Shown here piece by piece: positions 26,698 to 41,818 of a stretch of DNA of 64,000 nucleotides (position 1 is the first letter of the stretch; each line of letters begins with the position of its first letter). The DNA is from Cryobacterium sp. CG_9.6 (GTDB lineage: Bacteria; Actinomycetota; Actinomycetes; Actinomycetales; Microbacteriaceae). The stretch is taken from NCBI RefSeq assembly GCF_029893365.1, contig NZ_JARXUZ010000001.1, positions 1,054,001-1,118,000 of the forward strand, given 5' to 3'. The position numbers and the translations under genes were made by a program. Under the pieces are notes generated by a model. That model saw only the letters and a program-made list of their open reading frames with translations. It did no database searches and was not told where the DNA came from.

Positions 26698-27606
26698 GTG
26701 CCGGCAGTGACCACCACAGTGGGGTGGGGCCTGTTGCTGGGGACAACCCTGGGGCTCGGGCTGTGGTCACTCGTGAGTCTCACTCCGCGGCTGAGTCGGC
26801 CTCGTTTGGCTGATCGGGTTGCCCCGTACATTCTGGACGTGTCGGCCGAAGCCCGGGCCTTCGTGGGTCGGGTCTCGGTCGACCCGATTCCGGTTCTCGG
26901 CACGTTGTTCTCGCCGCTGTTTAGCTGGCTCAAGCGTGGCCTGTCGAGCGTGCTTGGCGGGGCCGACACCATTGCGTTGCGTCTGCGACAGTCCGGTTCC
27001 ACCCAGAGCGTCGACGAGTTCCGTTCGAGTCAGGTGATCTGGGGGCTCATCTCTCTGGCCGGGGGAGTGGTGATCACCGCTGCGTTACCCGCCGTTCGAT
27101 CGTTCCCACTCGTCCTTCAGCTTGCCCTGCCGCTCCTCGCCGCGGCCGGCGGTGCGCTGACGCGGGAATGGGTGCTGCAGCGAGCCGCGACCGCCCGCCT
27201 CGCACGCATGCGCAGCGAGTTACCCACCATTCTCGAATTTCTTACCCTGTCGCTGTCGGCAGGCGAGGGCATCCTCGACTCCCTTCGTCGGGTGTCGGGA
27301 ACCAGCTCGGGAGAGTTGTCCCGCGAGTTCGCGGGTGTCGTCGGCGAGGTGCATGCGGGGGTGCCGCTCTCGGTGGCGTTGCAGTCGCTGGCGCGGGGCA
27401 TCCGTCTGCCCGAGGTGACGCGGCTCGTGGACCAGATCACAGGTGCCCTGGACCGAGGTTCCCCCCTTGCGGAGGTGCTGCGAGCGCAGGCTCAAGACGC
27501 CCGAGATCAGTCCAAGCGTGTGCTGCTGGAGATCGCCGGTAAAAAAGAGGTCGCGATGCTGGTGCCCAACAAAATTGTAAAAACGCACTACTACTGCCCA
27601 TGAGGA
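26698..27606 (+). pseudogene. tadC: tadC 5' part, interrupted by the integrative element
   Basis: F-domain platform protein partner of TadB. The first 290 residues are normal: membrane helices, then LPTILEFLTLSLSAGEGILDSLRRV and the second F-domain helix pair through KKEVAMLVP. After that proline the frame runs into the mobile element and adds only NKIVKTHYYCP before a stop. The missing final membrane helix is found at 41098-41175. Joining the two at the shared GCC gives a 315-residue TadC. In the integrated state the product lacks its last helix and is probably non-functional. GTG 26698 or GTG 26707 may be the start. Confidence 0.9.
27564..27566. other. attL crossover (shared GCC) of serine-integrase element
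   Basis: The bases GCC at 27564-27566 inside tadC are repeated at 41094-41096. Taking the left flank up to here and the right flank after the second copy rebuilds continuous TadC coding (V-P-L-V-F). Serine integrases recombine at very short shared cores, which fits a 3-base identity. To the right of this point the DNA turns abruptly AT-rich. Confidence 0.75.
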
Positions 27607-27668
27607 CGAACTGCGCGTGTTTTTGAGTGATCCACTGCGGACCTAGCCTGGGCCAGTCGTCGCGAAAC

Positions 27669-27917
27669 TCAGTTGGCGACGACGGCGGGCGTCTGCGCCG
27701 TCTGGCGCAGGTCCGGCCCGTAGTGCTTGTTCCACCAAATGTTGTGCGCGCAGTATTGGCACTTCTTGTAGAACGGCAGGTAGATGAGCCCGATTCCCGC
27801 CGTGCAGATCGCAATCGTCCAGATGACAGTCATGCGCCCGATGTGCGCGCCTCCCTTCTCGCACGACTTGCAGTCAATACAACCCTTCTGGGCGTAGATG
27901 TTGAGGTGGTTGGACAT
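27669..27917 (-). CDS. Small zinc-ribbon/membrane protein, LITAF-like layout
   Basis: An 82-residue protein with CIDCKSC near the N-terminus, a central hydrophobic segment (TVIWTIAICTAGIGLIYL), then CQYCAHN. Two CxxC knuckles flanking one hydrophobic stretch is the layout of LITAF-like zinc-binding membrane-inserted proteins, though homology is not proven. ATG 27917 was chosen for the AAGG sequence seven bases upstream and because the upstream extension is not conserved-looking. A 20-bp sequence upstream of it is repeated upstream of the next gene, suggesting shared control. Confidence 0.6.
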   Translation of the reverse strand: MSNHLNIYAQKGCIDCKSCEKGGAHIGRMTVIWTIAICTAGIGLIYLPFYKKCQYCAHNIWWNKHYGPDLRQTAQTPAVVAN

Positions 27918-27935
27918 AGGGCACCTTTCGAATGG

Positions 27936-27955
27936 ATGTGACTCATACTCCGTGG
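27936..27955 (-). repeat. Copy 1 of a 20-bp repeated upstream element
   Basis: ATGTGACTCATACTCCGTGG at 27936-27955 differs by one base from the copy at 28482-28501. Read on the minus strand it lies about 20 bases upstream of each of two minus-strand start codons (27917 and 28462) and contains TATGAGTCACAT, so it may be a shared promoter or operator. Confidence 0.6.
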
Positions 27956-27958
27956 GCT

Positions 27959-28462
27959 TCAGCCCTGGCAAATTTCGTCGGTAGCGAATCCTGACGGGTG
28001 ATCGGCAGCGTTGTAGTTCGGCTCGTAGATGCTGACGTTGTCAGAGACTTCGACCCGGTTTGCAGCCGGGGAGCTGTCGCCAGCCTGTGTCGCATGGTCA
28101 CAGATGTACAGCATCGCCTCGTTGGCGATCTGCTGCGCCTGCTCATTGGTTGTCTCTCTCGGCACGTATATCCCCGCCTTCCGCGCGGATATTTGAGCAC
28201 TGTCCAAGGCAACGCCTGACCCGGTGAGGAAGGCCTCCAGATCGAGCGGGGCGGGCTGGGCGGCGGTCTCGGACGTGGCTGGCTCAGCCGGAACGTCCTG
28301 CGTTGACTGGGGTGTCCCAGACGGAGATCCGTCGCTGCTCGGGTTGATAACAGCGTTGACGCCGCCGACGACAACAGCCGCCGCGATAAGCCAAGCCCAC
28401 CATTTCATGTACCACGGCTTCCTCGGCGTGGATGCTGAGGGCTGAGGTGACTGCTCGGGCAT
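27959..28462 (-). CDS. Hypothetical membrane-anchored secreted protein
   Basis: A 167-residue protein with a short Pro/Ser-rich cytoplasmic start, one hydrophobic helix (about residues 22-40, WLIAAAVVVGGVNAVI), a Ser/Pro/Thr/Ala-rich linker and a C-terminal folded region with two cysteines (YICDHA and DEICQG) that could form a disulphide outside the cell. AAGGAG lies eight bases before ATG 28462. I do not recognise the C-terminal domain. It is the first cargo gene beside the divergent XRE regulator. Confidence 0.65.
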   Translation of the reverse strand: MPEQSPQPSASTPRKPWYMKWWAWLIAAAVVVGGVNAVINPSSDGSPSGTPQSTQDVPAEPATSETAAQPAPLDLEAFLTGSGVALDSAQISARKAGIYVPRETTNEQAQQIANEAMLYICDHATQAGDSSPAANRVEVSDNVSIYEPNYNAADHPSGFATDEICQG

Positions 28463-28481
28463 ACGGGGCGCTCCTTTACTT

Positions 28482-28501
28482 ATGTGACTCATAGTCCGTG
28501 G
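28482..28501 (-). repeat. Copy 2 of a 20-bp repeated upstream element
   Basis: ATGTGACTCATAGTCCGTGG at 28482-28501, in the 70-base gap between the minus-strand membrane protein and the plus-strand XRE regulator. It contains the inverted repeat GACT-CAT-AGTC, and a further GACTCATTGTC follows at 28501. This is a plausible operator for the XRE protein at 28534. Confidence 0.6.
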
Positions 28502-28533
28502 ACTCATTGTCAGCTTAGCGTCAGCGTAGATAC

Positions 28534-28755
28534 ATGCCAGCCCCTACCCACCGCGCCGTCTTCGGTGCGCGCGTGCGCGAACTCAGGGTCGGACACGGCT
28601 GGTCACAGGAGGACTTCGCCCACCGTGCGAACCTTGACCGCACCTACGTTTCTGGTATCGAGCGCGGTCGGCGGAATCCGACGCTGGACATCATCCAGCG
28701 CCTCGCCCAGACGCTCGACGTGCCCGCCACTGACCTGTTCGCGGAGCACGCGTAG
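28534..28755 (+). CDS. XRE-family helix-turn-helix regulator
   Basis: A 73-residue protein that is almost entirely one Cro/CI-type HTH: VRELRVGHGWSQEDFAHRA, then the recognition helix around LDRTYVSGIERGRRNP, then LAQTLDVPATDLF. It is divergent from the minus-strand membrane protein, and a dyad-bearing repeat lies in the space between. It is likely a local regulator of the element's left end. Confidence 0.88.
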   Translation: MPAPTHRAVFGARVRELRVGHGWSQEDFAHRANLDRTYVSGIERGRRNPTLDIIQRLAQTLDVPATDLFAEHA

Positions 28756-28944
28756 GGCCCGCAACGCAAGCCATGCCTGTCGCATCCGCCATCGGCCCTG
28801 AGCGCTCCCTCTCGGACCCAGCAGCACGCCCCGGTCCCGCCGTGCTAACCCGGCGGCCTAAGGGGGCAGCGGGACGCAGGGAGGGCGCAGCCGTGTCCGT
28901 TGCTGGGTGCAACTCGCCACCTGACCTGGGGTTTTCTTATAGGT

Positions 28945-28975
28945 TTGGCGCTGATGGGTGGGGGAGCGGCATAAT
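28945..28975 (+). promoter_or_regulatory. Candidate promoter for a leaderless transcript
   Basis: TTGGCG at 28945-28950 and CATAAT at 28970-28975, separated by 19 bases, lie directly before ATG 28983. Transcription would begin close to the A of that ATG, and there is no ribosome-binding site, so a leaderless mRNA is likely. The spacing is slightly long. Confidence 0.4.
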
Positions 28976-28982
28976 AGTACAC

Positions 28983-29261
28983 ATGTCGTTCGTCGTCAAG
29001 CTCAGCTGCCGGGGCACCGCCATGCGTACGCACCCCCTGCGCACCGTGGCGGAGTTCCGCTACGAAGACGGATGGGCGCGCGTTCGCAGCGAAGGCCAGC
29101 TTGACACCGTGCAGGAGCCGACCGGGGACGTACGGCTACGGCATCGCTTCGAGTGCGGCCATGGCCGGTGCACGCGTGATGACGTCTACACGGCCGAACA
29201 GCTGTATCCTCTCCTTGACGAAGCTCGCAAGTGGGGTAACGCGGAAGTCCCCCTCGGCTGA
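28983..29261 (+). CDS. Hypothetical protein, element cargo
   Basis: A 92-residue protein beginning MSFVVKLSCRG. It has three cysteines (KLSCRG, FECGHGRC) and a C-terminal helix DDVYTAEQLYPLLDEARKWG. No family is recognised. ATG 28983 follows a -10-like CATAAT by seven bases. It is the first gene of the plus-strand run leading to the replication protein. Confidence 0.55.
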   Translation: MSFVVKLSCRGTAMRTHPLRTVAEFRYEDGWARVRSEGQLDTVQEPTGDVRLRHRFECGHGRCTRDDVYTAEQLYPLLDEARKWGNAEVPLG

Positions 29262-29331
29262 CGCCACACAGACTTATAACTGAACAGCAGTCCTCACGCC
29301 ACGCTTGACGTGGATGGGGGCTTATAAGAAG

Positions 29332-29388
29332 GCTCCTCAGCGGGAACCTCACGTTTGGCACGCCCTGCGTGCTACCTCGCTGAGGAGC
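29332..29388 (+). promoter_or_regulatory. Hairpin enclosing the Shine-Dalgarno of the next gene
   Basis: GCTCCTCAGCG at 29332-29342 is the exact reverse complement of CGCTGAGGAGC at 29378-29388. The right arm contains GAGGAG, the ribosome-binding site for GTG 29395, and is followed by TTTT. The fold would hide the ribosome-binding site, or act as a weak terminator, so it could limit expression of the replication operon. Confidence 0.5.
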
Positions 29389-29394
29389 TTTTCC

Positions 29395-29598
29395 GTGTCC
29401 CTTACCCCGAATCAGGCGTCGGCTTATGTTGCCGTTGCCGTGAGAGTCCATGACCCCGAGAGGGAAGTTACTGCCCGGCGCAACCTGGCCGAAGCCAAGA
29501 TCGCCGCTGCCATCGAGCGTGCGCTAGCCGCCGCGCCCCCGCTCACCCCTGCCCAGACCAAGCGCCTGTCGGGCCTCCTGCGGGGAGGTCAGCGATGA
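29395..29598 (+). CDS. Small Ala-rich hypothetical protein
   Basis: A 67-residue, probably helical protein (AEAKIAAAIERALAAAPPLTPAQTKRLSGLL). GTG 29395 follows GAGGAG by seven bases. The composition is like small helical proteins beside replication genes in actinobacterial elements, but no family can be named. Its stop overlaps the next start (ATGA), forming a translationally coupled set with the following gene and the primase. Confidence 0.6.
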   Translation: MSLTPNQASAYVAVAVRVHDPEREVTARRNLAEAKIAAAIERALAAAPPLTPAQTKRLSGLLRGGQR

Positions 29599-29978
29599 CC
29601 CGCCATTGGATCGCAGCCGATTACCCAAGCAAGCGAGGACTGTCACGGTCTGATGCCATGCGCGTGCTGAGCAACGGCCCTGACCCTAAGTGGTTCGAGC
29701 CGTGGGCATCACACGGAGTCCTGCTCCCCGGCGTGGCCGAGCGCAACTCCAGGTATGGATATGTCCACATTGTTGGCGGCACCGAGGGGCCGTACCAGTA
29801 TGACGTCCACCTGTTCGGGGACCGGGAGGGACTCAGCTGGAGCCTGGAGCACCTGCATGAGGATCACCCCCGGTGCGGCGACGAGTGCCACGGCCTGTTC
29901 TACTTCACAGCGGATGAGCCTATCCGCCTGCGACTGGTAGTTGAAGCGGACGAGGAAGACGGCGAGGTGACCAGTTGA
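29595..29978 (+). CDS. Hypothetical protein, replication operon
   Basis: A 127-residue acidic protein with Trp/His-rich central part (GYVHIVGGTEGPYQYDVHLF, EHLHEDHPRCGDECHGLFYF). The His/Cys cluster HPRCGDECH could bind a metal. It overlaps the preceding gene by four bases and the primase gene by four bases, so all three are co-translated. Not recognised. Confidence 0.6.
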   Translation: MTRHWIAADYPSKRGLSRSDAMRVLSNGPDPKWFEPWASHGVLLPGVAERNSRYGYVHIVGGTEGPYQYDVHLFGDREGLSWSLEHLHEDHPRCGDECHGLFYFTADEPIRLRLVVEADEEDGEVTS

Positions 29979-31780
29979 GCACCCTCGACATCGCCCTCAG
30001 CCTGGCTGCGGTTGGGTGGTATGTGTTCCCATGCTCCGCCAAGGGCAAGCCTCGCGTCCGCTGGGGTGAAGAGGCCACTACCGACCCGGCAACCATCAAC
30101 AGATGGTTCCAGCGGGATGAGCGCATCGGTGTCCACTGTGGGCGCAGTGGTCTGCTCGTGGTGGACCGTGACAACAAGGACGGCCGTGACGGCTTTGCGA
30201 GTCTCGAACTGGCGGGCATCAGGCTGCCAGCGACCATGCACTACACCAGCCGCAGCTGCAACGGCAGGCACGACGTGTTCGCGGCCCCGGCAGGTGTCGA
30301 CTGCACCATCGCCTCAGACGTCCTCGGTATGCCCGGTGTGGACATTCGTGCGGGCGTCGGGATGGTGATCTACAACGGGTCAGTGCTCGCTGAGGCCCCG
30401 AGCCTCACCCCGGCCCCAGCGTGGGCCATTGTGCACCACAAAAAGACCGCCTACTCGTCCAGGGTGTCGCTGGAGGAGTGGCTGGCGGAAGAGCGTAGCT
30501 CGGAGCCGAGCACCAAGGCGCGCAAGCTGGCCGAGGCAGTGCCGCTCGAAGGTGTTGGCAACGCCAAGCTGCTCAGTCTGATCACACCCCTCGTGGACGA
30601 CTTGATGTGGGGTAATGGGCGTCGGCAGGCGTACGACGTCGCCCGTGAGCGGTACATCCGCAACTACCCCGATACGGGCGAGGCGTTTGATCAGGCGTGG
30701 ATGAAGGCTACCGCTCGGGTGGAGTCCGACTTGGACGCGGTGATGCAAGAGCCGCCAACCGAATATGAGCCCACCGCTACACGTGAGGAGCCGGACGGTG
30801 ACGACTCCTCCCAAGACCTGTACGTCGATGTAGCCACCGTGCTGAGCGGTTCCCAGCACAGGCCCAAGGCGACCGTCGCTCTCCGCACAGATGGTCAGGG
30901 GCTGTTCTACCGAGGCAAGGTAAACACGCTGGTTGGTGACCCTGAGTCAGGCAAGACGCTGATCGCAGCTTGCGTAGCCGCTGACGTGCTGGCCTCGGGG
31001 GGAAGCGTGCTGTGGCTCGACCTTGACCACAACGGAGGCAGTGACTTGGTGTTGCTGCTGACAGGGTTCGGCGTCCAGAACAGTGTGCTCATCAACCGTG
31101 CCAGGTTCCGCATCGCCTCCGAAGTGCTGGATGACCAAGCAGACGTAATGCGAGCAGTAGCCGATGCAGCGGAGTGGGGGCCGGATTACGTCGTCATTGA
31201 CAGCGTCGGCGAGCTGCTGCCCTTGTTCGGGGCATCCAGCGACTCGGCTGATGACTTCACCGGAGTGAACCGTCAGGTGGCGGCAAAGCTGGCGACCCAC
31301 GGGGCCTGTGTCGTCACGATCGATCACCTTGCGAAAGGGCATGACTCCCGGGCGTATGGGGCCTCGGGGACGATGGCAAAGAAGCGCGCTTCCAACGGTG
31401 CCTATTACGAAGTGCAGACCGTCATCGCCTTCACGCCGTCAGGCGGTGGCCGTGCCGACTTGCGGATCGTGAAGGACCGACCGGGCAACATCCGCGACAA
31501 CTCCCCGCGCGAGGGCAAGCGCCCCAGGGCAGCGAGCTTCTCGCTGGGCAGGGATAACCGAGATCAGCCACAGTGGAAGTTCTACGCGCCGGAGGAAGCG
31601 CCCGTAAAGCCACCAACGAGAACGCTAGAGGTACAGGTCGTGGAGACCGACGTGGACAAGCTTCGTGCGCTGAACCCACCGCCTATCTCCAAGCGTGACG
31701 TCATGGCCCGCATGAAGTGGGGCGGTCCACGTGTGCTGGATGCGCTGAGGCAGTACAGGGAGGCGATGGCTGATGCCTGA
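29975..31780 (+). CDS. Bifunctional prim-pol / RepA-like AAA ATPase replication protein
   Basis: A 601-residue replication protein. Residues about 1-170 are a primase-polymerase domain: ALSLAAVGWYVFPCSAKGKPR and the metal-binding VDRDN (Asp64, Asp66). Residues about 295-510 are a RepA/RecA-like ATPase with Walker A GDPESGKT (about 320-327) and Walker B DYVVIDSV (about 402). The C-terminus has a short helical region with KRDVMARMKWG resembling an HTH. The TTG start overlaps the previous stop. It probably starts replication of the excised element, with the repeat cluster about 160 bases downstream as candidate origin. Confidence 0.83.
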   Translation: MSTLDIALSLAAVGWYVFPCSAKGKPRVRWGEEATTDPATINRWFQRDERIGVHCGRSGLLVVDRDNKDGRDGFASLELAGIRLPATMHYTSRSCNGRHDVFAAPAGVDCTIASDVLGMPGVDIRAGVGMVIYNGSVLAEAPSLTPAPAWAIVHHKKTAYSSRVSLEEWLAEERSSEPSTKARKLAEAVPLEGVGNAKLLSLITPLVDDLMWGNGRRQAYDVARERYIRNYPDTGEAFDQAWMKATARVESDLDAVMQEPPTEYEPTATREEPDGDDSSQDLYVDVATVLSGSQHRPKATVALRTDGQGLFYRGKVNTLVGDPESGKTLIAACVAADVLASGGSVLWLDLDHNGGSDLVLLLTGFGVQNSVLINRARFRIASEVLDDQADVMRAVADAAEWGPDYVVIDSVGELLPLFGASSDSADDFTGVNRQVAAKLATHGACVVTIDHLAKGHDSRAYGASGTMAKKRASNGAYYEVQTVIAFTPSGGGRADLRIVKDRPGNIRDNSPREGKRPRAASFSLGRDNRDQPQWKFYAPEEAPVKPPTRTLEVQVVETDVDKLRALNPPPISKRDVMARMKWGGPRVLDALRQYREAMADA

Positions 31781-31933
31781 GCTTGCCCCCGCGCGATCTG
31801 CTTTGCTCGCGACTATCAGTGCCCGGACTGCAACGCCCGCACCCGCCTTGAGGTGGACACATTCGGCTTGCACCACCTGATCGTCGTTCACGACGATACC
31901 TGCCCGTGGCTCTGCACGAGAGGAGGGAGCTAA
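31773..31933 (+). pseudogene. Small CxxC protein, apparent -1 frameshift
   Basis: ATG 31773 (after GGAGG) starts MPELAP; at the CCCCC run 31786-31790 a one-base slip moves reading into a frame encoding RAICFARDYQCPDC followed by LEVDTFGLHHLIVVHDDTCPW and a stop at 31931. The second part has a CxxC knuckle and His residues and looks like real protein. In the uninterrupted second frame there is no start codon, only the primase stop. It is either a single-base frameshift mutation, a programmed -1 shift, or a base-calling error. Confidence 0.45.
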
Positions 31934-31940
31934 TGACTGG

Positions 31941-32116
31941 GTACCACTAGTACCGGGCCGGGTCCACCCATGTCGGCGGTGGCAGCGGTACCGGCGGTAC
32001 CCCCTTTAAAAGGGGGGGGTACCGCCAGTACCACGCCACCTTTTCCGCGCCCCCATAGGAAAAAACCGGTACCCGGGGCGGTACTGGTACCGCTTGGCCG
32101 GTACCGCTTGGCAGCG
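31941..32116. repeat. GTAC-rich repeat cluster with hairpin, candidate replication origin
   Basis: Ten GTAC tetramers begin at 31941, 31950, 31988, 31997, 32019, 32028, 32069, 32081, 32087 and 32101, far more than chance allows in 164 bases; most are inside GGTACC. A 14-bp tandem repeat (GGTACCGCTTGGC units at 32086 and 32100) ends the cluster. The arms 31993-32007 and 32008-32026 form a strong hairpin. An open frame on the minus strand here is low-complexity and is not called. Location just after the replication protein suggests an origin with iterons, by inference. Confidence 0.6.
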
Positions 32117-32243
32117 CCGCAAGGCAGCGATCGAAGGAGCCCCTCATGACCAAAAAATCCCCGGCTTGTGTGGACAACCCACCCTGGCCTCGGGAAGATG
32201 CCCTTGACCTAACATCAACCACCGAACCTAGGAGGGCCGACTA

Positions 32244-32609
32244 ATGGCAGGCAATGCTGACGCCGAGTGGGCAGCCCTGAACGCCTCACTGCGGGACTAT
32301 ACGCCTCCCTGCGACGGGCTGGAACTGTTCACCTCCGAGCAGCTGTCCGACGAGATATTCGCGGCGAACCCGCTCCGGCTGGCCGCGGGCGGTCAGTGGA
32401 TCGAGGTCGCCCCGGAGGCGCTCGGATCTCAGGCCCCGGAGGGCGTCATCGCGGAGGTGCGCGAGCGCGTGTTCCAGCAGCTGATCGACGCGGGCGTGCC
32501 CGGAGCGGTGCGAGTGCGTGACGTGACCTGGCAAAAGGCAGGTGCTGACGGTGAAAACACGGGAGCGTGGATCACAAACGTCCGACCGGTCGTACTCTGC
32601 GTGCCATGA
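32244..32609 (+). CDS. Hypothetical protein, element cargo
   Basis: A 121-residue protein from ATG 32244, preceded by AGGAGGG. It reads WAALNASLRDYTPPCDG early and ends VRDVTWQKAGADGENTGAWITNVRPVVLC. It resembles small WhiB-associated or replication-linked hypothetical proteins of actinophages only in general layout (short conserved start with a CxG motif), so no function is assigned. Good ribosome-binding site and codon use support it as real. Confidence 0.6.
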   Translation: MAGNADAEWAALNASLRDYTPPCDGLELFTSEQLSDEIFAANPLRLAAGGQWIEVAPEALGSQAPEGVIAEVRERVFQQLIDAGVPGAVRVRDVTWQKAGADGENTGAWITNVRPVVLCVP

Positions 32610-32657
32610 GCATCCTCCCGCTGCCACGGCGGCGCTGTTGTGCATTAGTTTGGTTTC

Positions 32658-33227
32658 ATGACAGAAGGCGCGTATTGGGCAAGCAGGTTCGAGCACTATG
32701 ACAACCAAGCGCGAGGGCTCCAGCAGAAGGCCTACGAACTAGTAGCCATAGGCCTTACCACCGTCGCTGCGCTATCGGGGGTGGCGATCTCGTACTCCCG
32801 GTACGAAGTGTTCGCGTTCGTTCCGATCATCTGCGTTCTCCTGTGGGCGATCGCTGGGCGGATGATCCATGAACATCTGCTTCTCAGCGCGTACCGAGAC
32901 TTCGCCGAGGCACAAGCGGCAAAGTTGGCTACGACTTCCAGTTCATCGCTCGGTCTGTGGAGAAGTCAGGGCGGGAAGCTTGCTATGCGTGGTCCGGCGA
33001 ACTATTACGTCTTCGCGGTCGTCATCGCCATCACACTAGGCCTAACGTTTGGCAGCCTCGGTTTCCTTTTCACCACCACTGCGGTTCCCCTCGGTTGGCT
33101 CATAGCCGAGACGATCACCGTCGGCATCGTACTGATTGCTGGCGCCGTGGTCTTCGTGACGGCCAGCAGTGACCATCGTTCGCTCGAGAAGCAGATGGAT
33201 GTCGATCTCTCGCAGATTTCGCCTTAG
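32658..33227 (+). CDS. Four-helix membrane protein of unknown function
   Basis: A 189-residue protein with an N-terminal amphipathic region (WASRFEHYDNQARGLQQKAYELVAIG), two hydrophobic helices near residues 25-75, a polar loop (about 75-115) and two more helices near 115-170, ending in a charged tail. The helix-pair layout recalls SLATT-type or other pore-forming effectors linked to phage defence, but no partner gene with a nucleotide-signalling domain is adjacent. Starts at ATG 32658 without a clear ribosome-binding site. Confidence 0.6.
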   Translation: MTEGAYWASRFEHYDNQARGLQQKAYELVAIGLTTVAALSGVAISYSRYEVFAFVPIICVLLWAIAGRMIHEHLLLSAYRDFAEAQAAKLATTSSSSLGLWRSQGGKLAMRGPANYYVFAVVIAITLGLTFGSLGFLFTTTAVPLGWLIAETITVGIVLIAGAVVFVTASSDHRSLEKQMDVDLSQISP

Positions 33228-33607
33228 CGACGTTCGTTGGCCGCCCTCAAGGTCCTCGGGCCACGCTCGTGGCCAATGGATAGAAGGCAACCTCTCCAAC
33301 GGCATCACGTATCCGGCACCTTGATTTTCCTGACTGGGGACCGCTTGCGCTCCTCTGCATGGGCCGGCAGGGGGGGCGCTGTGGTGCGCCGCGACGCCCT
33401 CTCAGACGCCATGGCGTCCCAGGGTGGCCCCGGGTATCCCCGCGTTCTGCCGAGTCCTTGAGCGACGCCTCAGAGGCCCACGCCGAGGGGCCGACATCCG
33501 CGCGGCATCCCGGCTGAGCAACGGGGGAGGAGAGCGCGACCACGCAGGGCCTGGCCAAGAGCACGCGGTTTGCTCAAAGGGTCCCCTTGAGGCATAGTTC
33601 CTCATGT
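33228..33607. other. Intergenic stretch, no gene seen
   Basis: About 380 bases of GC-rich DNA between the membrane protein and the SOS box. Short open frames exist on both strands, but none has a ribosome-binding site or protein-like composition. No strong hairpin or repeat was noticed. Confidence 0.5.
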
Positions 33608-33623
33608 TCGAACAAATGTTCGA
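33608..33623 (+). promoter_or_regulatory. LexA (SOS) box
   Basis: TCGAACAAATGTTCGA fits the actinobacterial LexA consensus TCGAAC-N4-GTTCGA exactly. It lies 21 bases before ATG 33645 and just before the AAGGAGG ribosome-binding site, so LexA would repress the two-gene unit (60-residue protein plus serine recombinase) until DNA damage. Confidence 0.8.
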
Positions 33624-33644
33624 CCACTCAAGGAGGACCGAAAC

Positions 33645-33827
33645 ATGCCCACAATGACACGACACCACATCACCACCGTGCCCCGCCAGGGCGGGTACGC
33701 CGCCCGCTGCGAGTACGAGGTAGACGGCGAGGTGCAACTGTGCAACATCACGTTCGGTGGGTTCCCCACCAGGACCGCCGCCCGCGAGGCCTGCAAGCAG
33801 GGCTGCCCGGAGACGGAGAACCGATGA
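33645..33827 (+). CDS. Small SOS-controlled protein coupled to a serine recombinase
   Basis: A 60-residue protein with two clustered cysteine-containing segments (AARCEYEVDGEVQLCNITFGG and EACKQGCPE). AAGGAGG precedes ATG 33645 and a perfect SOS box lies upstream. Its stop overlaps the ATG of the recombinase gene (ATGA). The position suggests an accessory to recombination such as a directionality factor, but no sequence family is recognised. Confidence 0.65.
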   Translation: MPTMTRHHITTVPRQGGYAARCEYEVDGEVQLCNITFGGFPTRTAAREACKQGCPETENR

Positions 33828-34468
33828 CCACGATGATCGGCTACCTGCGGGTGTCCACCGAGGAACAGGTCACCAGCGGACTCGGTCTGGCGGCTCAGCG
33901 CGACACCATCCAGCGCTACGCCGACGCGCACGGCTGGGACGTGATCTGGTACTTGGACGAGGGGCTCTCGGCTAAGTCGCTGGCCCGCCCCCAGTTGCAG
34001 GCCGCGCTCGCCCGATTGCACATCATCCCGAAGCGCCGCGACGTTGCAGGCATTGTCGTCGCCAAGCTTGACCGCCTGAGCCGCAGCGTGCACGACTTCT
34101 CGGGCATCTTGAAGCTCGCCGCTGTGCGCAAGTGGTCTGTCGTGGCAATCGACCTGGGTGTGGACACCAGCACGCCGACCGGCAAGCTCGTTGCCAACGT
34201 CATGATGTCGGTGGCTGAGTGGGAGCGCGAGGTCATCGGCGAGCGGACTTCTGTCGCCATGCAAGCCGCCAAGCGTCAGGGCAGGCACATGGGCCGGGTG
34301 TCTATACTCCCGCAGAGCACCGGCGACCGCCTGCGGTCCCTTCGAGCCACGCACACCCTCGCAGAGACCGCTGTGCAGCTCAATGCCGAGGGCCTACGCA
34401 CCGCGACGGGCGAGCCGTGGTCCGCTAACACGGTGGCCAAAGTGCAGACGCGCCTGCTTGCCGCTTGA
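33824..34468 (+). CDS. Serine recombinase, resolvase/invertase type
   Basis: A 214-residue site-specific recombinase. The catalytic serine is Ser11 in IGYLRVSTEEQ; the Arg-containing KLDRLSRSVHDF segment and the helix EWEREVIGERTSVAMQAAKRQG are typical of the resolvase domain. A C-terminal HTH follows (about residues 165-214, TLAETAVQLNAEGLRTATG). The size and layout are those of small resolvases/invertases, not of large integrases. It is translationally coupled to the 60-residue gene and thus under the same SOS box. Confidence 0.9.
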   Translation: MTTMIGYLRVSTEEQVTSGLGLAAQRDTIQRYADAHGWDVIWYLDEGLSAKSLARPQLQAALARLHIIPKRRDVAGIVVAKLDRLSRSVHDFSGILKLAAVRKWSVVAIDLGVDTSTPTGKLVANVMMSVAEWEREVIGERTSVAMQAAKRQGRHMGRVSILPQSTGDRLRSLRATHTLAETAVQLNAEGLRTATGEPWSANTVAKVQTRLLAA

Positions 34469-34478
34469 ACACACCCGG

Positions 34479-35966
34479 CTAGTCGTCGTTCGGTACGTAC
34501 CAACCATCGTTGACAGTCGGATCATCAGAGAGTGCCGCGTCCTCGACCTCTTCGAGCGCTGACATGTCCAGCGGCATCTGCTCGTTGTCGACCTCGTAGG
34601 CGAGAAAGGCCGAGAGTGCCTCGCGGTGCTCCGTTGACAGATCGCTGACGAGCGGAACCGTGGCTGCGAGCAGGTCGGCCATGAGAACGTTGCTCCGCGT
34701 TACACCTGTACCAGTACGGTTCGCGAGGTCGACGTTCACTCGACCCGACCGCGTGGAAACGATGGACTGCGCCACCTCACCGGCACCTTCGAACGTCGCC
34801 GACAGGCCACGCAGACGATCCGTGCTGATCGCGCCCTCATCAATTTTCGCGCTAATGTGTTCCGGGCCAGAGTGAACGCTGACCTCCACCAACTCAAACC
34901 CCTCCGAGCGGTCGATGAACCGCTCGACCGAGACTGCCTGAGGCGTGTCCTTCTCCAGGTGGTCCAGATCCTTCTTCGCGCCGCCGAGGATCGCGAAGAG
35001 GTGAGGTGCCTCGAAGCTAATGTGTCTACCACGACGAGCCCAGCGAAACAACTCACCCTCGGCTGCGGAGTCGACGCCGAGAGGGTCGCTCTTGACCACA
35101 GCCGCGCGCGCCGCCAGCACGTCTAGGTTGGCACGAATCAGTCGCTGAATATTGTCATCGTCAGCATCGAAGTCGAGCGTGTCTAGGTCAGAAAGTCTCA
35201 GGCTGCGACCTACCCGCTTCCAGAATCCATCGTCCTCCGTGCGCATGTACTTCACGAGGTACCGCAAAGACTCCGGGTTGAGGCGACCGGACGTGTCCGC
35301 GCCGCCGGGGAACTGGCTGAGTGAGCCTTCGCTTCCCTCCCATACCGCTTGCAGCACACGATTCATGCGCCACGCCTGTGGCCCCCCGAGACGGTCGTCG
35401 ATGGCAGTCACGGCCTCGGCTGTCGGGTCGAACTCAACCTGCGCCGCCGCACCGAACCCCCGCGCCACCACGTCAGCCAGATCTACCGCCTCATTGGCCA
35501 CGAACGTGCCGCGCCCGCCCTGGACCAGCGCATTGCTGAGCATGTTGGCGGTTGAGTCGGTCTTCTTCCGGTCGATCAAACGTTCCAGAGCGTTGGGCTC
35601 AGTGAACATCGCGTCTGTGTCGGAGATCACCGCGTCAACGGCGGGACGGGCCAGCTCCGATTCAGGACTCGTAAGTCCGAAAATCAAGGGATCGGTCGTG
35701 TCGATTAGGGCGACGTCGTCCACCAGCGCATCGAGGTCGTATGCCAGTCGCAGGTACACCCGCCGACTGCTCGCATCCGGCCACGTCATGACCAAGTCAG
35801 GTGCGAACGTGTGATTGAAGTAGTTGGTGGATTTGATGTCGGCGGTGGAGTCGAGTGCTTCTAACTCCTTAGCTACCGCGTCCTTGACGCGGAAGATTGA
35901 TTCGTTAGGTGAGGGGTCGAACAATCCATCGTGGATGAGTGCTGCGAAGCCTGACACGACAACCAT
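34479..35966 (-). CDS. Unknown 495-residue protein, second gene of candidate defence pair
   Basis: A 495-residue acidic, apparently soluble protein with no membrane helix, Walker motif or nuclease motif that I can see. It starts ATG 35966 inside the stop of the upstream gene (TAATG), so the two are translated together. The early part is DLVMTWPDASSRRVYLRLAYDLDALV; later parts include GGRGTFVANEAVDLADVVARGFG and FEAPHLFAILGGAKKDLDHL. It may be the sensor or regulator of the nuclease-like partner. This is inference from operon structure and the defence-rich setting. Confidence 0.7.
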   Translation of the reverse strand: MVVVSGFAALIHDGLFDPSPNESIFRVKDAVAKELEALDSTADIKSTNYFNHTFAPDLVMTWPDASSRRVYLRLAYDLDALVDDVALIDTTDPLIFGLTSPESELARPAVDAVISDTDAMFTEPNALERLIDRKKTDSTANMLSNALVQGGRGTFVANEAVDLADVVARGFGAAAQVEFDPTAEAVTAIDDRLGGPQAWRMNRVLQAVWEGSEGSLSQFPGGADTSGRLNPESLRYLVKYMRTEDDGFWKRVGRSLRLSDLDTLDFDADDDNIQRLIRANLDVLAARAAVVKSDPLGVDSAAEGELFRWARRGRHISFEAPHLFAILGGAKKDLDHLEKDTPQAVSVERFIDRSEGFELVEVSVHSGPEHISAKIDEGAISTDRLRGLSATFEGAGEVAQSIVSTRSGRVNVDLANRTGTGVTRSNVLMADLLAATVPLVSDLSTEHREALSAFLAYEVDNEQMPLDMSALEEVEDAALSDDPTVNDGWYVPNDD

Positions 35967-36571
35967 TAGTAGCCCTTCTCAGCCTCGTACTGCTCGATGA
36001 CGCCCCGGTGGACGTTGGAGATCACCAGGGCCTCCTGCTTCTCGGAGAGGATGATGAACCACAGTCTGCTCGCAACGGCCGACACCGCGTCGGCGTCGAC
36101 GCTGGCCTCAGCCTTTGCAACATCCTTCTCACCAAACACCCGCTCACGGTTCGCGAGCACATGCTTCTTCACGTAGGCAGTTGTCGTGAGGTCGGGCCAC
36201 TTCGTGATGTCGTGGGGGCTCCAAGCGATCCACATGAAGTGGTCACAGAACCCAGGCTTGTCGATGTAGGCGACATAGCACTGCGCAAGAAACTTTGAGT
36301 AGTGCTCACCGAGATCGTGGGGCTTCGCATAGTTCTTCGACTCGGCGAAGAACATCTGGCCGTCGAACTCGCCGTACTTGAGCGTGCCACCGAGGTCGAA
36401 CGAGAAGGTCTGCCCTCCATGTGGCCACAAGAAGGTTAATTTATCGACAGCGGGCGGGTTGGGGTTAACCCAATGAGCATTGACGCGCGTAGTCGACTCA
36501 AGCCAACGCTTCGCTCGCTTCGCGCCGTCCGCACCCTTGGCTTGCGCCGCCTCGCCTTTGATCCCCGCCAT
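35966..36571 (-). CDS. Putative PD-(D/E)xK-like nuclease, first gene of candidate defence pair
   Basis: A 201-residue protein. The N-terminal helix region GADGAKRAKRWLES, then a strand with FSFDLGGTLKYGEFDG, then FFAESKNY, matches the order helix - Asp - ExK of PD-(D/E)xK nucleases; candidate catalytic residues are Asp59 or Asp70, Glu77 and Lys79. The rest has Trp/His-rich stretches (HFMWIAWSPHD). The ATG lies at 36571. It is coupled to the 495-residue partner. Nuclease function is predicted from motif order only. Confidence 0.65.
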   Translation of the reverse strand: MAGIKGEAAQAKGADGAKRAKRWLESTTRVNAHWVNPNPPAVDKLTFLWPHGGQTFSFDLGGTLKYGEFDGQMFFAESKNYAKPHDLGEHYSKFLAQCYVAYIDKPGFCDHFMWIAWSPHDITKWPDLTTTAYVKKHVLANRERVFGEKDVAKAEASVDADAVSAVASRLWFIILSEKQEALVISNVHRGVIEQYEAEKGY

Positions 36572-36638
36572 GATCCGTACACTAGCGCAGTCTCATCGCG
36601 TGCTCGCGCACACTGATACGCAGTGGACGCGCGTCCCG

Positions 36639-37640
36639 CTAGAAGGCCGGGAGCGTGTAGCGCAGGTGGGTCGGACGAAGGGCGCTGTCGCTCGGAACCC
36701 ATTCCGACCAGATGCGCACTATCCCCCCAGAAGTGACGATGGAACCATCAGCGCCCCGGGAAGCACTTATCCCGTCGACAACAAAAAGGTCTGTCGGCTG
36801 ATAGTTCCGGGCATGGTTAACCTCACCTTGCGTGAGCTGCACACTATCTACCTCGTCACCGACCGAGCCCTTGACCTCGACATGACGCTCTATCCCGTCC
36901 AACGTCACGCGCAGGTCGTAAGGCTTGCCCAGCTCCTCAATCTGGGCCGCGCCACCGGCTAGGTAGTGCTCAATAGCCATATGGACGGCGTGCTGTTCGA
37001 GCGCAGTCCTCTTCTCCGCATCCGCCATATACCCCTGACCGCGCCCAGCACGTGCTGTCGCCCGGAGACCGCTCGCCATTGCGGCCGCATCGACATCCGG
37101 ACGGTCGAAAAGGAGCGCTACGAGGGCGGCGGGGAACTTGGTGAGGTAACCCTGTTGAGCGCGCAGTTCACGACCGCCGTAATTCTGGAAGGGCGCATAG
37201 ATCGGCTTACCGTGGGCGCGGGTGACGCCGGCGATCACCTCCAATACCTCGGCACGACGAGCGTTCAGGGCTGACCGTGTGACAGGACGCTCAAGCTCCG
37301 TATAGCCGGTCAGTGGCATGTTCCACGTCGGCCCAACCGTGGGCACTCCACGCTCCCGCCCCCTGGTGCCGCGCGCCTGCCAAGACCAGGTGATTGTCTC
37401 CAACGGGCCAGCCGCTTCCGACCACCCGAGGATGCCAGGCTCGCCGGAAGGAGTCTTGTGCCAATGGAACACTCGATCGCCCGGTTGCACATACGAGGTC
37501 AGCTGGTAGGACCACGAAGGGTTACCATCGATGGCTGCTTTCGGAGCGCGCAGATAATCCCCCAATCCAACTGGCTCTTGCCTGATCTCCAGCCAATAGA
37601 TCTCCTCGGGGTCCGCATCCCACCAGTTGTGAATAGCCAT
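36639..37640 (-). CDS. Putative modification-dependent nuclease: PUA/EVE-like plus DUF3883-type domain
   Basis: A 333-residue protein in two parts. Residues 1 to about 120 (WWDADPEEIYWLEIR, GDRVFHWHKTPSGEPGILGWSEA) look like an EVE/PUA-like modified-base-reading fold. Residues about 205-320 form a DUF3883-like PD-(D/E)xK region: helix RTALEQHAVHMAIEHYL, then YDLRV (Asp242), then HVEVKGS (Glu255, Lys257), and DLFVVDGI. This combination suggests a type IV-like enzyme that recognises modified phage DNA and cuts it. It needs no methyltransferase, and none is present. Base recognition is inferred. Confidence 0.72.
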   Translation of the reverse strand: MAIHNWWDADPEEIYWLEIRQEPVGLGDYLRAPKAAIDGNPSWSYQLTSYVQPGDRVFHWHKTPSGEPGILGWSEAAGPLETITWSWQARGTRGRERGVPTVGPTWNMPLTGYTELERPVTRSALNARRAEVLEVIAGVTRAHGKPIYAPFQNYGGRELRAQQGYLTKFPAALVALLFDRPDVDAAAMASGLRATARAGRGQGYMADAEKRTALEQHAVHMAIEHYLAGGAAQIEELGKPYDLRVTLDGIERHVEVKGSVGDEVDSVQLTQGEVNHARNYQPTDLFVVDGISASRGADGSIVTSGGIVRIWSEWVPSDSALRPTHLRYTLPAF

Positions 37641-37743
37641 AAGTCAACTCTGGCAGACCCTGACTCGCCTGAAGAAACCCATGCGGCCTGATCTCCTGAG
37701 ATAATGACTTGTTCGAGAAGTCCTCGACGGAGAGCAGGATCAA

Positions 37744-39177
37744 GTGACAGACCCGATGGCGATGGTTCCCGCGCAGGCCGCGGGCGCGATGGACATGACC
37801 ACGGCCATCACACAGTTCGAAAACGCTCTACTGGCACAGGCAGAGATTATGGGCTTGCCGTCATCGGGTGTGCTTGTCGAGGTGCACCAGCGCGTTCAGG
37901 TTCTCTCGAACATGGACGGTGCGATGGCGGGGCTCCCACGCGAGAAGCGCGCGACGTCCATGTATCTGTCGAAGTTCATGCTGGCGGTGAGCGCTGGATT
38001 GTTTGACGCCGCATTGAACTACCTGTGGGACGAGACGATCGGCGAGCTCCGCAAACGGATCATCGACTACGACCTCGACTACTTCTTCGACAACGCGGTG
38101 TCCTCAGACAAGCGCAAGGAGCTCAAGGGCCCCGACGACCTATTGAAGGTAACCGACGACGAGCTGGTCCGGGCCGCGCAGAAGGTCGGATTCATCTCAC
38201 CCCTGGGCCAGCAGCAGCTCGACCTCGTGCGGCACATGCGCAATCACGCGAGTGCCGCTCACCCCAATCAGCATGAATTGCAGCCATACTCGTTGCTCGG
38301 GTATATGGAGACCTGCATCAAGGAGGTCATCACCCTCCCTCAGTCCCCGACGATGGTACAGACGGGGCGGCTCCTCGCGAATGTGAAGACTGCGACCGTC
38401 ACGAAGGAGGAGGCCGCCGGTTTCGCGACTCTGTTCGCCGGACTACGCAGGGACCAGTCCGAGACCTTGGCCAACGGCTTGTTTGGCATCTACGTATCTC
38501 TTGACTCCACGCCTGTCATGCGTGACAACGTGCGTCTACTTCTGCCGCACCTGTGGCCCAACCTCTCTGAGGATATGAAGTTCGCCTTCGGCACGCGTTT
38601 CGCGCGTTTCAAGGCGAGCCTGGACATTGCGCAGGCTGATCTCGCGAAGGAGTTCCTCCAGTCAGTCGATGGCTCGTCATACCTTCCCGAGGATGTCCGC
38701 GCAGCTGAGATCGACGTGCTCCTCGATCGCCTCCATGGTGCTCACCTTAGCATGAACAACTTCTACAACGAGCCGCCGATCGCGAAGGAGCTTGCGACCT
38801 ACATCGGGTCGCTGCCTGTTCCGCCGGGCGTCCGGGCGAAGTATGCGAGCGGCTTGGTCGATTCCTTCCTTGCACGTTCGAGCGGCATCGCCTTCGCGGC
38901 CGACGGCCTGTACGAGCAGATGCTCCTCAGCATGACTCCCGCTGAGGCGAACCTGGCCCTGCTCTACGCGACCGGCGCGGATGCCTCATCCAAGTACCTC
39001 GCCGAGATTCCCAGGAAGCAGCTCGATCGCCTTATTGCGATACTGACTCCGAAGCTGGTTAGCCGCCCCGCTCAGGACCTCATGGCGCATGTGAACGCGT
39101 TCACTGGGCCGCGGCAGAGTATGGCCATCGATTCGAAGATGGTACACCTTCGGAACAAGCTTGCAGTGACTCTTTAG
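37744..39177 (+). CDS. Unknown 477-residue protein with HEPN-like R-x6-H motif
   Basis: A largely helical 477-residue protein. The stretch QQLDLVRHMRNHASAAH contains Arg166-Asn-x5-His173, the RN-x-H pattern of HEPN ribonucleases, placed after a helix that would contribute the partner surface. The C-terminal 250 residues are helical repeats (e.g. LLLPHLWPNLSEDMKFAFGTRF) of no recognised family. It is single on the plus strand within the defence segment, facing the integrase. An RNase/abortive-infection role is a hypothesis; the Rx6H alone is short and can occur by chance. Confidence 0.6.
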   Translation: MTDPMAMVPAQAAGAMDMTTAITQFENALLAQAEIMGLPSSGVLVEVHQRVQVLSNMDGAMAGLPREKRATSMYLSKFMLAVSAGLFDAALNYLWDETIGELRKRIIDYDLDYFFDNAVSSDKRKELKGPDDLLKVTDDELVRAAQKVGFISPLGQQQLDLVRHMRNHASAAHPNQHELQPYSLLGYMETCIKEVITLPQSPTMVQTGRLLANVKTATVTKEEAAGFATLFAGLRRDQSETLANGLFGIYVSLDSTPVMRDNVRLLLPHLWPNLSEDMKFAFGTRFARFKASLDIAQADLAKEFLQSVDGSSYLPEDVRAAEIDVLLDRLHGAHLSMNNFYNEPPIAKELATYIGSLPVPPGVRAKYASGLVDSFLARSSGIAFAADGLYEQMLLSMTPAEANLALLYATGADASSKYLAEIPRKQLDRLIAILTPKLVSRPAQDLMAHVNAFTGPRQSMAIDSKMVHLRNKLAVTL

Positions 39178-39274
39178 CGGCGAAGATGATCTGGTGAGTC
39201 AGCTGGAAGAACTCCGGAGCGTCCACTGTGGACAACTCGCCCGCGGCCCGAGTGACTCTCGATAAGATCGCGCG

Positions 39275-39400
39275 ATGCAGGATGATCTGGAGGCGCTGAG
39301 CGATCCGTCTTGCGCTCGGTGCCTCGTGCGTCTCCAGATCGCCGGCAGTCCCGAGCGCCCGTTCTCGCGCTGCCCCGATTGCGGATTAGTCAGGCTGTAG
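39275..39400 (+). CDS. Small zinc-ribbon protein
   Basis: A 41-residue open frame with two CxxC knuckles (CARC near residue 13 and CPDC near residue 33) spaced as in a zinc ribbon. ATG 39275 has no strong ribosome-binding site. The knuckle spacing makes chance unlikely but the frame is short. Confidence 0.4.
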
Positions 39401-39449
39401 CGGACCTCCTCGCCCCTCTGGTGGCGACGGCTCGGTATGCTCTGCTTTC

Positions 39450-39668
39450 ATGACGATCTACACCACTAACGAGTGGCAGGGCTACGGGAAGCAGAACTAC
39501 TTTTGGAACGAGTACAGGCTCGAAGGTGCCACCGTCGTCAAGTACAAGTGCCACAGACAGAAATTCTTCGATGGCAAGGAGAACACTTGGCAGCAGGATG
39601 AAACGATCGCGGAATCCTGGGGCGTTGACGACCCGTCCATGCCTGACTGGCTTCGGCAGCATTTCTGA
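39450..39668 (+). CDS. Small hypothetical protein
   Basis: A 72-residue protein rich in Tyr, Trp, Asn and Lys ([20 protein letters not shown] start; QHF end). The amino-acid use is unlike random GC-rich frames, which supports a real gene. It lies between the HEPN-like gene and the integrase 3' end. No family recognised. Confidence 0.55.
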
Positions 39669-39691
39669 TCGTTCACAGCGCCTCGGCGTCG

Positions 39692-41068
39692 CTAGCCCTT
39701 CCAGGTGACGCGCACTGTGTCCGGGTTGAACGCCTTGCCGCTGCCGCTCGGCAGGATCGTGACCGTGACCAGCGAGGTCAGCACGGCACGCTTACTGTCC
39801 ATGCTGAGTGCGACCCAGGCCTCGGCAGCCTGCCCGCTCATCAACTCGGCAGGTACGGCAGCAGGTAGGGCGGCTTCTACGGCAGCGGCAGCCTGAGCTC
39901 GGTCGGCCCGCAGTATCTCGCTGATGCGCGTCAACTGACCGCCGTCGATGCCACCAGTGGCAAACATGTCGGCGGCGTTGGACAGCCGGGCGTCTAGCGC
40001 CTCGATCGTGACGCGTGCCTCTTGCAGTGCTGCCGGGTCGCCCGTGGCGAACAACTGCGCGGCGTCGGGCATCTGCAACCGGCCCACCACGATGCCCTCC
40101 ACCAGCGCGTCCACATCAGTCTGCTTACGGCGCACGCGGTAGCACTCGCTGCACACGTAGCTCGGTGGCTGGCGCTTGACCCCGCCTGTCTTGGTGGTTG
40201 TCATCCTACCGATGGCCCGCGCCATGACACCGTCGCACCGGCCACACCGGGCGATGCCACTGAGTAGGTACTTGGGTGCCCTGCCGGGGTTGCCCGAGCG
40301 TCGCCTCGGGTCAGTGAGCAAAGCTTTGATTCTTTCGTGAGTGTCTTCGTCGATCACACGAGGAGAGTCGGCGTGGGCATGGCCGAGTACCTGCCCCCTA
40401 TGGATTGTCAGCCCAGCCAGACTAGGCCGGAGCAGCAACTGCTTTAGCGTCGTACTGTTCCAGCGTGCGCCTCGGCCTGGGGTTGGAGCCTGCTGAGTGT
40501 CCAGGTCCTTGCAGATCGCCCGTAACGATTCACCGTCGAGCACACGCGCCACCGCCGACCGAATGGTCGTGGCCTCATCAAAGTGCAGCACAGCGGCAGC
40601 GCCCTCGCGCCGGTAGCCGTAGCCCATGCGACCAGAGTGGACACCACTGACGGCCCGCTGCACATTAGCGGCGACCTGTCGTGTGGCCTTCTGTTCGCCC
40701 TCGTACTGGCTCCACGCGGCCACGGTGCGGGCTACGGCACGCCCTGCCGGTGTGGTCAGGTCGAGGGTGCCTGCCGTCACGGTGTACACGGGCACGTTCA
40801 GCTCAATGACCCGCTCCAGGTCTTTAGTCAGGCGCAGCAGCCGGTCCTGATGCCAAGCGATGATGGCCTCTGGCTGAGCCTTGAGCATGGCCTCGAAGTC
40901 GGGCCGTACCTTGCCAGTGGTGGCGCTGATGTCGTTGTCCGTATATGTGTGGACAACTGTCAGGCCTAGGCGCTCAGCCAGCGCGCGGCACTCCTGCTCT
41001 TGGCGGGCAACGGCTAGCGCCTCACCTGTGCGGTCGAGGCTAACGCGGGTGTAGATGACGCAATCCAT
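39692..41068 (-). CDS. Large serine integrase
   Basis: Site-specific integrase of 458 residues. Catalytic Ser10 in VIYTRVSLDRTG; IIAWHQDRLLRLTKDLERV is the usual Arg-bearing segment; then a recombinase domain (YGYRREGAAAVLHFDEATT onward) and a zinc ribbon with GIARCGRCDG and VCSECYRVRR; the C-terminal part is helical. Its ATG 41068 lies 26 bases from the shared GCC at the right end. Integrase next to an attachment site is the normal arrangement. It is expected to insert the element in tadC; excision would also need a directionality factor. Confidence 0.93.
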   Translation of the reverse strand: MDCVIYTRVSLDRTGEALAVARQEQECRALAERLGLTVVHTYTDNDISATTGKVRPDFEAMLKAQPEAIIAWHQDRLLRLTKDLERVIELNVPVYTVTAGTLDLTTPAGRAVARTVAAWSQYEGEQKATRQVAANVQRAVSGVHSGRMGYGYRREGAAAVLHFDEATTIRSAVARVLDGESLRAICKDLDTQQAPTPGRGARWNSTTLKQLLLRPSLAGLTIHRGQVLGHAHADSPRVIDEDTHERIKALLTDPRRRSGNPGRAPKYLLSGIARCGRCDGVMARAIGRMTTTKTGGVKRQPPSYVCSECYRVRRKQTDVDALVEGIVVGRLQMPDAAQLFATGDPAALQEARVTIEALDARLSNAADMFATGGIDGGQLTRISEILRADRAQAAAAVEAALPAAVPAELMSGQAAEAWVALSMDSKRAVLTSLVTVTILPSGSGKAFNPDTVRVTWKG

Positions 41069-41093
41069 AAAGGTACTTTAACGCATTGCTCGG

Positions 41094-41096
41094 GCC
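41094..41096. other. attR crossover (shared GCC) of serine-integrase element
   Basis: Right copy of GCC. Immediately after it, tadC coding resumes (G 41097, then CTC GTC TTT). The joined attP (right arm then left arm) has a GGGCCC centre and partial dyad symmetry (TCGGGCC / GGCCCAAC), as expected for a serine-integrase site. attB would be the middle of the last TadC helix. Confidence 0.7.
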
Positions 41097-41175
41097 GCTC
41101 GTCTTTTTGATTTTGCCCATGACAATCCTGTTCGCAATCTTTCCCGGGCTCGTTGTTCTGCAGTCCGGCTTCTGA
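41097..41175 (+). pseudogene. tadC: tadC 3' remnant
   Basis: The first base completes the proline codon; then 25 codons from CTC 41098 give LVFLILPMTILF and AIFPGLVVLQSGF with a stop at 41173-41175, the last membrane helix of TadC. There is no start codon, so it is silent in the integrated state. Joining it to 26698-27566 restores a 315-residue protein. Confidence 0.85.
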
Positions 41176-41212: not shown

Positions 41213-41389
41213 ATGTCGACACTCGCCCGCCGCATTGCCCGCCGATTCAGTGACGAAACCGGCGACGTTCCCGGCTGGGTTTTGATCACGCTGATGACTG
41301 CCGGGCTGGTCGTTATTATTTGGGGCCTGGCCGGTCCTGCCCTGAGCGGTGTCTTTGAACAGGCCATCGCTCGGGTCAGCGGCATCTGA
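41213..41389 (+). CDS. Small Flp-pilin-like membrane protein of the tad locus
   Basis: A 58-residue protein with a basic start (LARRIARRF), the acidic pre-helix segment SDETGDVPGW and one hydrophobic helix (VLITLMTAGLVVIIWGLAG). The size and position between tadC and tadE match the Flp-type pilin slot of actinobacterial tad loci, though the classical pilin cleavage motif with Glu+5 is not evident. It probably needs the tad machinery, now broken, to be exported. Confidence 0.65.
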   Translation: MSTLARRIARRFSDETGDVPGWVLITLMTAGLVVIIWGLAGPALSGVFEQAIARVSGI

Positions 41390-41401
41390 GCAGTGGCGAC
41401 C

Positions 41402-41818
41402 ATGAAGCGGATGCTCCGCGCGGCCCGCGCGCGCATCGCTGTCTCCGCGGAGACAGGTTCGGCCGTGGCCGAGTTCGTTATGGTCGCCGCCCTGCTCACC
41501 GCGCTCACCCTCGGCGTCATGCAGCTGGGCCTGGCACTGCACGTGCGCAACACCGTGCTGGACGCGGCAGCCGAAGGCGCTCGCTACGCCTCGCTGGCCG
41601 ACAGCAGTCTGGCCGAAGGCGCGGCGCGCACGCGTGACCTGATCCAGACCGCCGTGGGGCCGGCCTATGCCACCGGGGTCACCGCGAGCTACGACTCCAT
41701 CGCGGGCTACCCGTGCGTGCACGTGCGGGTGGTTACACCGCTTCCGCTTCTGGGTCTCTTCGGCATCGATCGCGGGCTGGAGGTTGATGGTCATGCGGCT
41801 CGCGAAACACTGGAATAA
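41402..41818 (+). CDS. TadE-like pilus-associated protein
   Basis: A 138-residue pseudopilin of the TadE family: a short basic start, SAETGSAVAEFVMVAALLTALTLG as the TadE-like helix with conserved Glu (GSAVAEF), then an extracytoplasmic domain ending SIAGYPCVHVRV. ATG 41402 is used; an in-frame GTG three codons earlier is possible. Follows the pilin-like gene by 12 bases. Confidence 0.8.
   Translation: MKRMLRAARARIAVSAETGSAVAEFVMVAALLTALTLGVMQLGLALHVRNTVLDAAAEGARYASLADSSLAEGAARTRDLIQTAVGPAYATGVTASYDSIAGYPCVHVRVVTPLPLLGLFGIDRGLEVDGHAARETLE

Follow-up and report, generated by a model that had tools for sequence, protein, structure and literature searches.

Why does a pilus gene lie in two pieces, and what might the DNA between them gain from it? 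In the window (the whole stretch of 64,000 nucleotides from Cryobacterium sp. CG_9.6 analysed here) the tad genes are read on the + strand. They comprise an intact tadA, encoding the pilus ATPase (24451–25728; Pfam T2SSE; NCBIfam TIGR03819 at 269.8 bits, below its cut-off of 373), an intact tadB (25725–26588; Pfam T2SSF) and the body of tadC (26698–27566; Pfam T2SSF and the list of open reading frames). After the CC of a proline codon, tadC is broken by an integrated element of about 13.5 kb (27567–41094), into which the interrupted frame continues as far as a stop at 27601–27603. The tail of the gene, made up of the third base of the proline codon, a further 25 codons and the stop, is found on the same strand at 41097–41175. 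It is followed by the flp pilin gene (41213–41389, +; 58 amino acids), which is intact here and split by other elements in relatives, and by tadE (41393–41818, +; Pfam TadE). The genome, of 3.54 Mb, has one TadC match; its comEC is uninterrupted and lies 1 Mb away.

Do the two pieces still make a gene? Joined, the flanks 26698–27566 and 41097–41175 give 948 nucleotides, or 315 codons, with no internal stop. The initial annotation had proposed this join, at a GCC common to 27564–27566 and 41094–41096, and recomputation returned the same single frame. The missing codons that it placed at 41098–41175 were confirmed in the window, as were the coordinates of the intervening 13.5-kb block with an integrase 26 bases from the right junction. 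Its truncated tadC, given as 26698–27606, starts at the correct base; the frame, stop included, ends three bases earlier, at 27603. A shared GCC of three bases would by itself be at chance level. The junction match rises above chance because the tadC codon run is intact in 31 of 36 congeneric genomes and cut at the same codon region in the other five (G005, G007, G017, G019 and G020), and because further genomes of the family are cut there too. Relatives with an intact tadC at this locus, which the annotation had proposed to look for, thus exist. The opposite case that it had raised, a split tadC lacking an element, was not encountered: the cut relatives have an integrase at the junction, except G017, where the contig runs out and neither integrase nor tadC tail was found.

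Where, then, does the crossover fall? Both ends were found for 13 elements (one pair, G452/L035, is spread over two contigs). In every one of them the two proline codons start with CC, and the frame made by joining runs on to the stop of tadC. We therefore place the probable core at this CC, in the window at 27565–27566 (+; bases 1 and 2 of the proline codon) on the left and at 41095–41096 (+) on the right. The strongest hydrophobic segment of the joined TadC, residues 287–305, lies downstream of the break. The window and its five cut congeners reach a stop after only 4–18 residues past the break. The proposal of a site-specific serine-integrase element in tadC, with a clean join and a truncated product, is borne out.

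Is the interrupted gene decaying? Compared with its nearest relative, G016, the tadC body of the window has a dN/dS of 0.071 (at a dS of 1.04, near saturation), similar to the 0.054–0.265 of eight intact tadC pairs; in the tail there are 9 synonymous and 0 non-synonymous codon changes. Since this dN/dS is as low as that of the intact pairs, inactivation may be recent. Judged from such comparisons, either the insertion would be recent or function would have been regained through excision.

What kind of element is this? Its large serine integrase (39692–41068, −) is full length at 458 amino acids, with the Resolvase (PF00239) and Recombinase (PF07508) domains above the Pfam cut-off and a zinc ribbon match at 23.3 bits against a Pfam cut-off of 25.3. 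Its first base, 41068, lies 26 bases short of the CC at 41095, at the right end of the element, and it adjoins an att site with a very short core and a clean join. At the other end lie a 182-amino-acid ORF (27959–28507, −) with a weak match to PHROG 4980, ‘superinfection exclusion’ (E 3.2e-5), and a small HTH regulator (28534–28755, +; regulator-type matches in PHROGs and PADLOC). A Prim-Pol/AAA replication protein (29975–31780, +; PF09250, PF13481) and a second, small serine recombinase of resolvase type (33824–34468, +; PF00239) both have relatives in sister elements. Among the nearest five (Y82, BB307, G164, G167 and G177) relatives of both occur in every one, those of the Prim-Pol protein being weak in two; in G279, of the same clade, neither was seen. 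The small recombinase perhaps serves in dimer resolution. The cargo (34479–39177) consists of ORFs at 34479–35966 (−), 35966–36571 (−), 36639–37640 (−; NOV_C domain) and 37744–39177 (+). Across the 19 elements compared these have no match, except for a weak one to 36639–37640 in BB307. With its NOV_C ORF the cargo resembles a defence cassette, with no good match to a PADLOC system; a role in defence is our guess.

No capsid, tail or packaging gene was recognised with Pfam or PHROGs among the 13 element ORFs scanned, and no FtsK-like TraB transfer domain with Pfam in the ten scanned for it. Small size, a replication gene and the absence of structural genes among those 13 ORFs are traits of phage satellites. 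The phage and plasmid protein matches of the Prim-Pol protein are partial only, the best plasmid match being to a Corynebacterium glutamicum plasmid (38.5% over 68% of the query). Relatives of the integrase occur in 763 of 50,697 phage records, the best rows being Streptomyces phages. Every best place has less than 60% identity (the rows listed, about 37–39%), so the deposited phages hold no near relative of it.

How often is tadC occupied? An even draw of 160 family genomes contained 99 with TadC, of which 93 could be classified, leaving out the weak-TadC genomes G074, G089, G097, G105 and G152 and also L195, which has no motif. In 7 of these 93, the window included, tadC is cut; four loci with long read-through tails (L097, L105, L111 and L114) were classed as cut by eye, against the automatic rule. 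Most tadC sites are empty. Across 398 family genomes, the window included, the eight integrases most similar to that of the window all adjoin a tadC tail, and three further matches adjoin the tadC body, on the opposite side. Where both ends were found, the smallest tadC insert measures about 8 kb (G279) and the largest about 38–39 kb (G005 and G007). In the G005 insert a DNA-polymerase match and phage families with no assigned function were seen, and no virion gene was recognised among nine ORFs. On one contig, L034, labelled Stenotrophomonas maltophilia P13, the same integrase adjoins a tadC tail, flp and tadE; the contig is probably actinobacterial contamination.

Is tadC the only target? 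In the pilin gene flp, elements occupy an Ala-Gly-Leu site in G032, G068, G136, G333, Microbacterium sp. Bi121 and H83, and Agromyces salentinus, and G193 has its split close by, at Gly-Trp; an IMG/VR contig holds one element end at the Ala-Gly-Leu site. Inserts of about 6 to 82 kb split tadA in 15 of 18 re-examined genomes, a lower bound, the 18 having been chosen by eye from the 398-genome scan. The remaining three (G130, G400 and G418) were dropped as insertions, tadA being broken there without an insert and the pieces adjoining. The tadA splits fall at about five sites, near residues 100, 145, 155–185 (where the ends are blurred), 220 and 300–320. Beside the break lies a serine integrase in 10 of the 15 genomes and a tyrosine integrase in 3; in G244 and G329 no integrase was found there. 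Finally, comEC, which lies outside the tad operon, is interrupted near residue 265 in two genomes, by 16 kb in G180 and by 47 kb in G235, with a serine integrase at each break; this count too is a lower bound, from 19 genomes chosen by eye. The comEC pieces of G309 and G339 lie on separate contigs and were left uncounted. In all, about nine sites in four genes (tadC, flp, tadA and comEC) are used.

Four of these genomes merit separate description. In G068 (L224, L259 and L262) one tad operon holds inserts in both flp and tadA, and tadC is broken between frames. In G230 (L217, 1906–3504) the reading frame of a tadA fragment passes uninterrupted into that of the integrase, making one open frame of 753 amino acids; the tad promoter may therefore drive integrase expression. 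The integrase of G119 (L253), nearly identical to the one in tadA of G415 (L280), lies near a fragment of a TadA-like paralogue that starts at about residue 220, as in G415; it was excluded from the tadA count. G235 has a weak TadA match only (2.5e-53) and may lack this Tad operon.

How large a share of the integrases is involved? We counted 128 PF07508 matches by hand in 249 family genomes and removed four extra copies in G193. At least 21 of the resulting 124 distinct matches lie in tadC (9), tadA (6), flp (4) or comEC (2); for the other 103 a location in an uptake gene is not known, and the counts were made without matched control genes. Outside the family, but within the order, 4 of 17 loci of related integrases, from 15 genomes (L327, L330, L331 and L333), adjoin tadC or tadA; what was seen at each is the piece of the tad gene on the integrase side, not the other half. 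These four come from four families, and the window is one member of a pattern that extends across its own family and four others of the order. Neighbours of other integrases, from a scan of 20 ORFs at 19 loci, most of them lacking a Pfam match, include polA, a luciferase-like gene and a RecD-like helicase gene. The near-identical integrases L090 and L091 adjoin the gene for a luciferase-like monooxygenase, and L039 adjoins polA. Of 160 family genomes, 158 have ComEC and 99 have TadC; because ComEC is nearly universal, their co-occurrence is uninformative.

What might the elements gain? It is rather probable, in our judgement, that they disable DNA uptake by the host and are the actinobacterial counterpart of the prophages in comK, comYC and comFA. 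Recombination between the attP of the element and an attB in the conserved proline codon of tadC would cut off the last hydrophobic segment, and the Tad/Flp pilus could then probably not be built. In this group the pilus most likely binds DNA and draws it in for ComEA/ComEC. With uptake blocked, the host would be unable to swap the occupied locus for an empty one through transformation, and the element would thereby be guarded against being cured. Selection for such self-protection could lead different elements to converge on tadA, tadC, flp and comEC, and the insertion would presumably be reversible in living cells. Tad pili have a role in adhesion too. As an explanation, a block on transformation covers all four targets at once: tadA, tadC, flp and comEC. 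In Micrococcus luteus, transformation was abolished by the loss of any tad ORF except one, whose deletion reduced it more than 100-fold (PMC4322843); that tadC would be needed for uptake in the present host is an analogy read from M. luteus only.

Might the integrases instead have drifted to conserved, dispensable coding sites in tadA, tadC and flp, the uptake defect being a mere by-product? Conserved coding sites are often used by serine integrases, and tadA and tadC are conserved. At the crossover core, too, both the proline codon and its flanks are conserved, and other targets such as polA exist. However, the insertions are spread, by a count without matched control genes, over about nine sites, all within four genes that belong to a single pathway, and are the work of several serine-integrase clades and of tyrosine integrases as well; moreover, comEC is remote from the tad operon. 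In a tree of 68 integrases the four target labels require 11 changes, against a mean of 31.9 with shuffled labels, and tad versus other targets requires 8. This is a quick tree (LG+G4) with long branches for G193, G251 (a short row), G395, G419 and L084; it omits L240, L242 and L041 (no match or too short), the loci L226, L246 and L247, others that were duplicates, and the G235 integrase. One tadC-targeting clade has nine integrases, all beside the tail; in another, of eight, half adjoin the tail and half the body. Recombinases of unrelated types converge on the uptake pathway. We regard drift to safe sites as unlikely, if deserving of some weight. It is evenly poised, in our view, whether selection has acted on several unrelated integrase lineages, in Microbacteriaceae and other families, for Tad and comEC targets that end transformation.

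Could loss of the Tad pilus instead shield the lysogen, and hence the element, from phages that bind the pilus? In Caulobacter, Tad pili are reported to adsorb phages, phiCb5 among them (PMC11067988). But insertions in comEC leave the pilus in place, ComEC being an inner-membrane DNA channel, and no actinobacterial Tad-pilus phage appeared among the literature matches listed. The integrase of G180 (L084, labelled ‘other’ in the tree, its comEC target having been found later) falls inside the flp-targeting clade, on a long branch with an inner fork support of 86; that of G235 is of another lineage, its nearest row being L225 at 52% identity. A relative of the flp-targeting integrases has thus reached comEC, a gene tied to flp through DNA uptake, and it is this that sets the block on transformation apart from exclusion of pilus phages, which we hold to be distinctly improbable. 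A host switch of the kind put forward in the initial annotation, in which regulated excision would turn pili or competence on when useful, draws on the restorable frames of the 13 pairs, the full-length integrase and the purely synonymous changes in the tadC tail, but the patchy distribution fits parasites, restorable frames are expected from any such integrase, exact excision is most likely a property of the integrase and no proof of a switch, and we give the idea very little credence.

If the block on transformation is correct, what is known from Firmicutes and other groups as a conflict of mobile elements with transformation would reach the actinobacteria and another type of pilus. The pattern of attB sites would then mark the Tad pilus as a general DNA-uptake pilus of these actinobacteria, many of which may never have been assayed for competence; it would be a clue, from genomes alone, to DNA import by Tad pili across a large group. 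The integrase–attB pairs in conserved genes are landing sites of possible use.

How do these elements compare with known systems? The skin element of Bacillus and other developmentally excised elements combine a serine recombinase, an interrupted gene and its exact restoration with programmed excision. The tadC element resembles the skin element in the first three, as read here from DNA sequence. Phage satellites and the actinomycete integrative elements with Prim-Pol are small and carry an integrase and a Prim-Pol protein. The tadC element is like them in these respects and in that no structural genes were found; it is unlike them in having no FtsK-like transfer or packaging gene among the ORFs scanned. 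No report of elements in tad genes was recognised among the literature matches listed, judged by title and the start of the abstract, subscription literature being mostly outside this scope; in a paper on Clavibacter prophages (PMC11856565) the words tad, flp and pilus are absent. The Tad-dependent transformation of M. luteus (PMC4322843) involves the same types of pilus gene, knocked out there and interrupted by mobile elements here.

A further likeness is to the competence-gene prophages of Firmicutes. The strategy proposed here, together with chromosomal curing, is described for comK, comYC, comFA, comM and comEC in two accounts (PMC4774983, PMC12637031), and a prophage in comGA of Staphylococcus pseudintermedius in a third (PMC7029219). 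The prophages in comK of Listeria, comYC of pneumococcus, comFA of Streptococcus and Bacillus, and comGA make site-specific splits of uptake genes, as do the elements here, and in both settings divergent integrases converge on the uptake pathway. Unlike the Firmicutes cases, the targets here are the actinobacterial Tad/Flp genes and comEC, at about nine sites, and small Prim-Pol elements take part besides inserts of prophage size.
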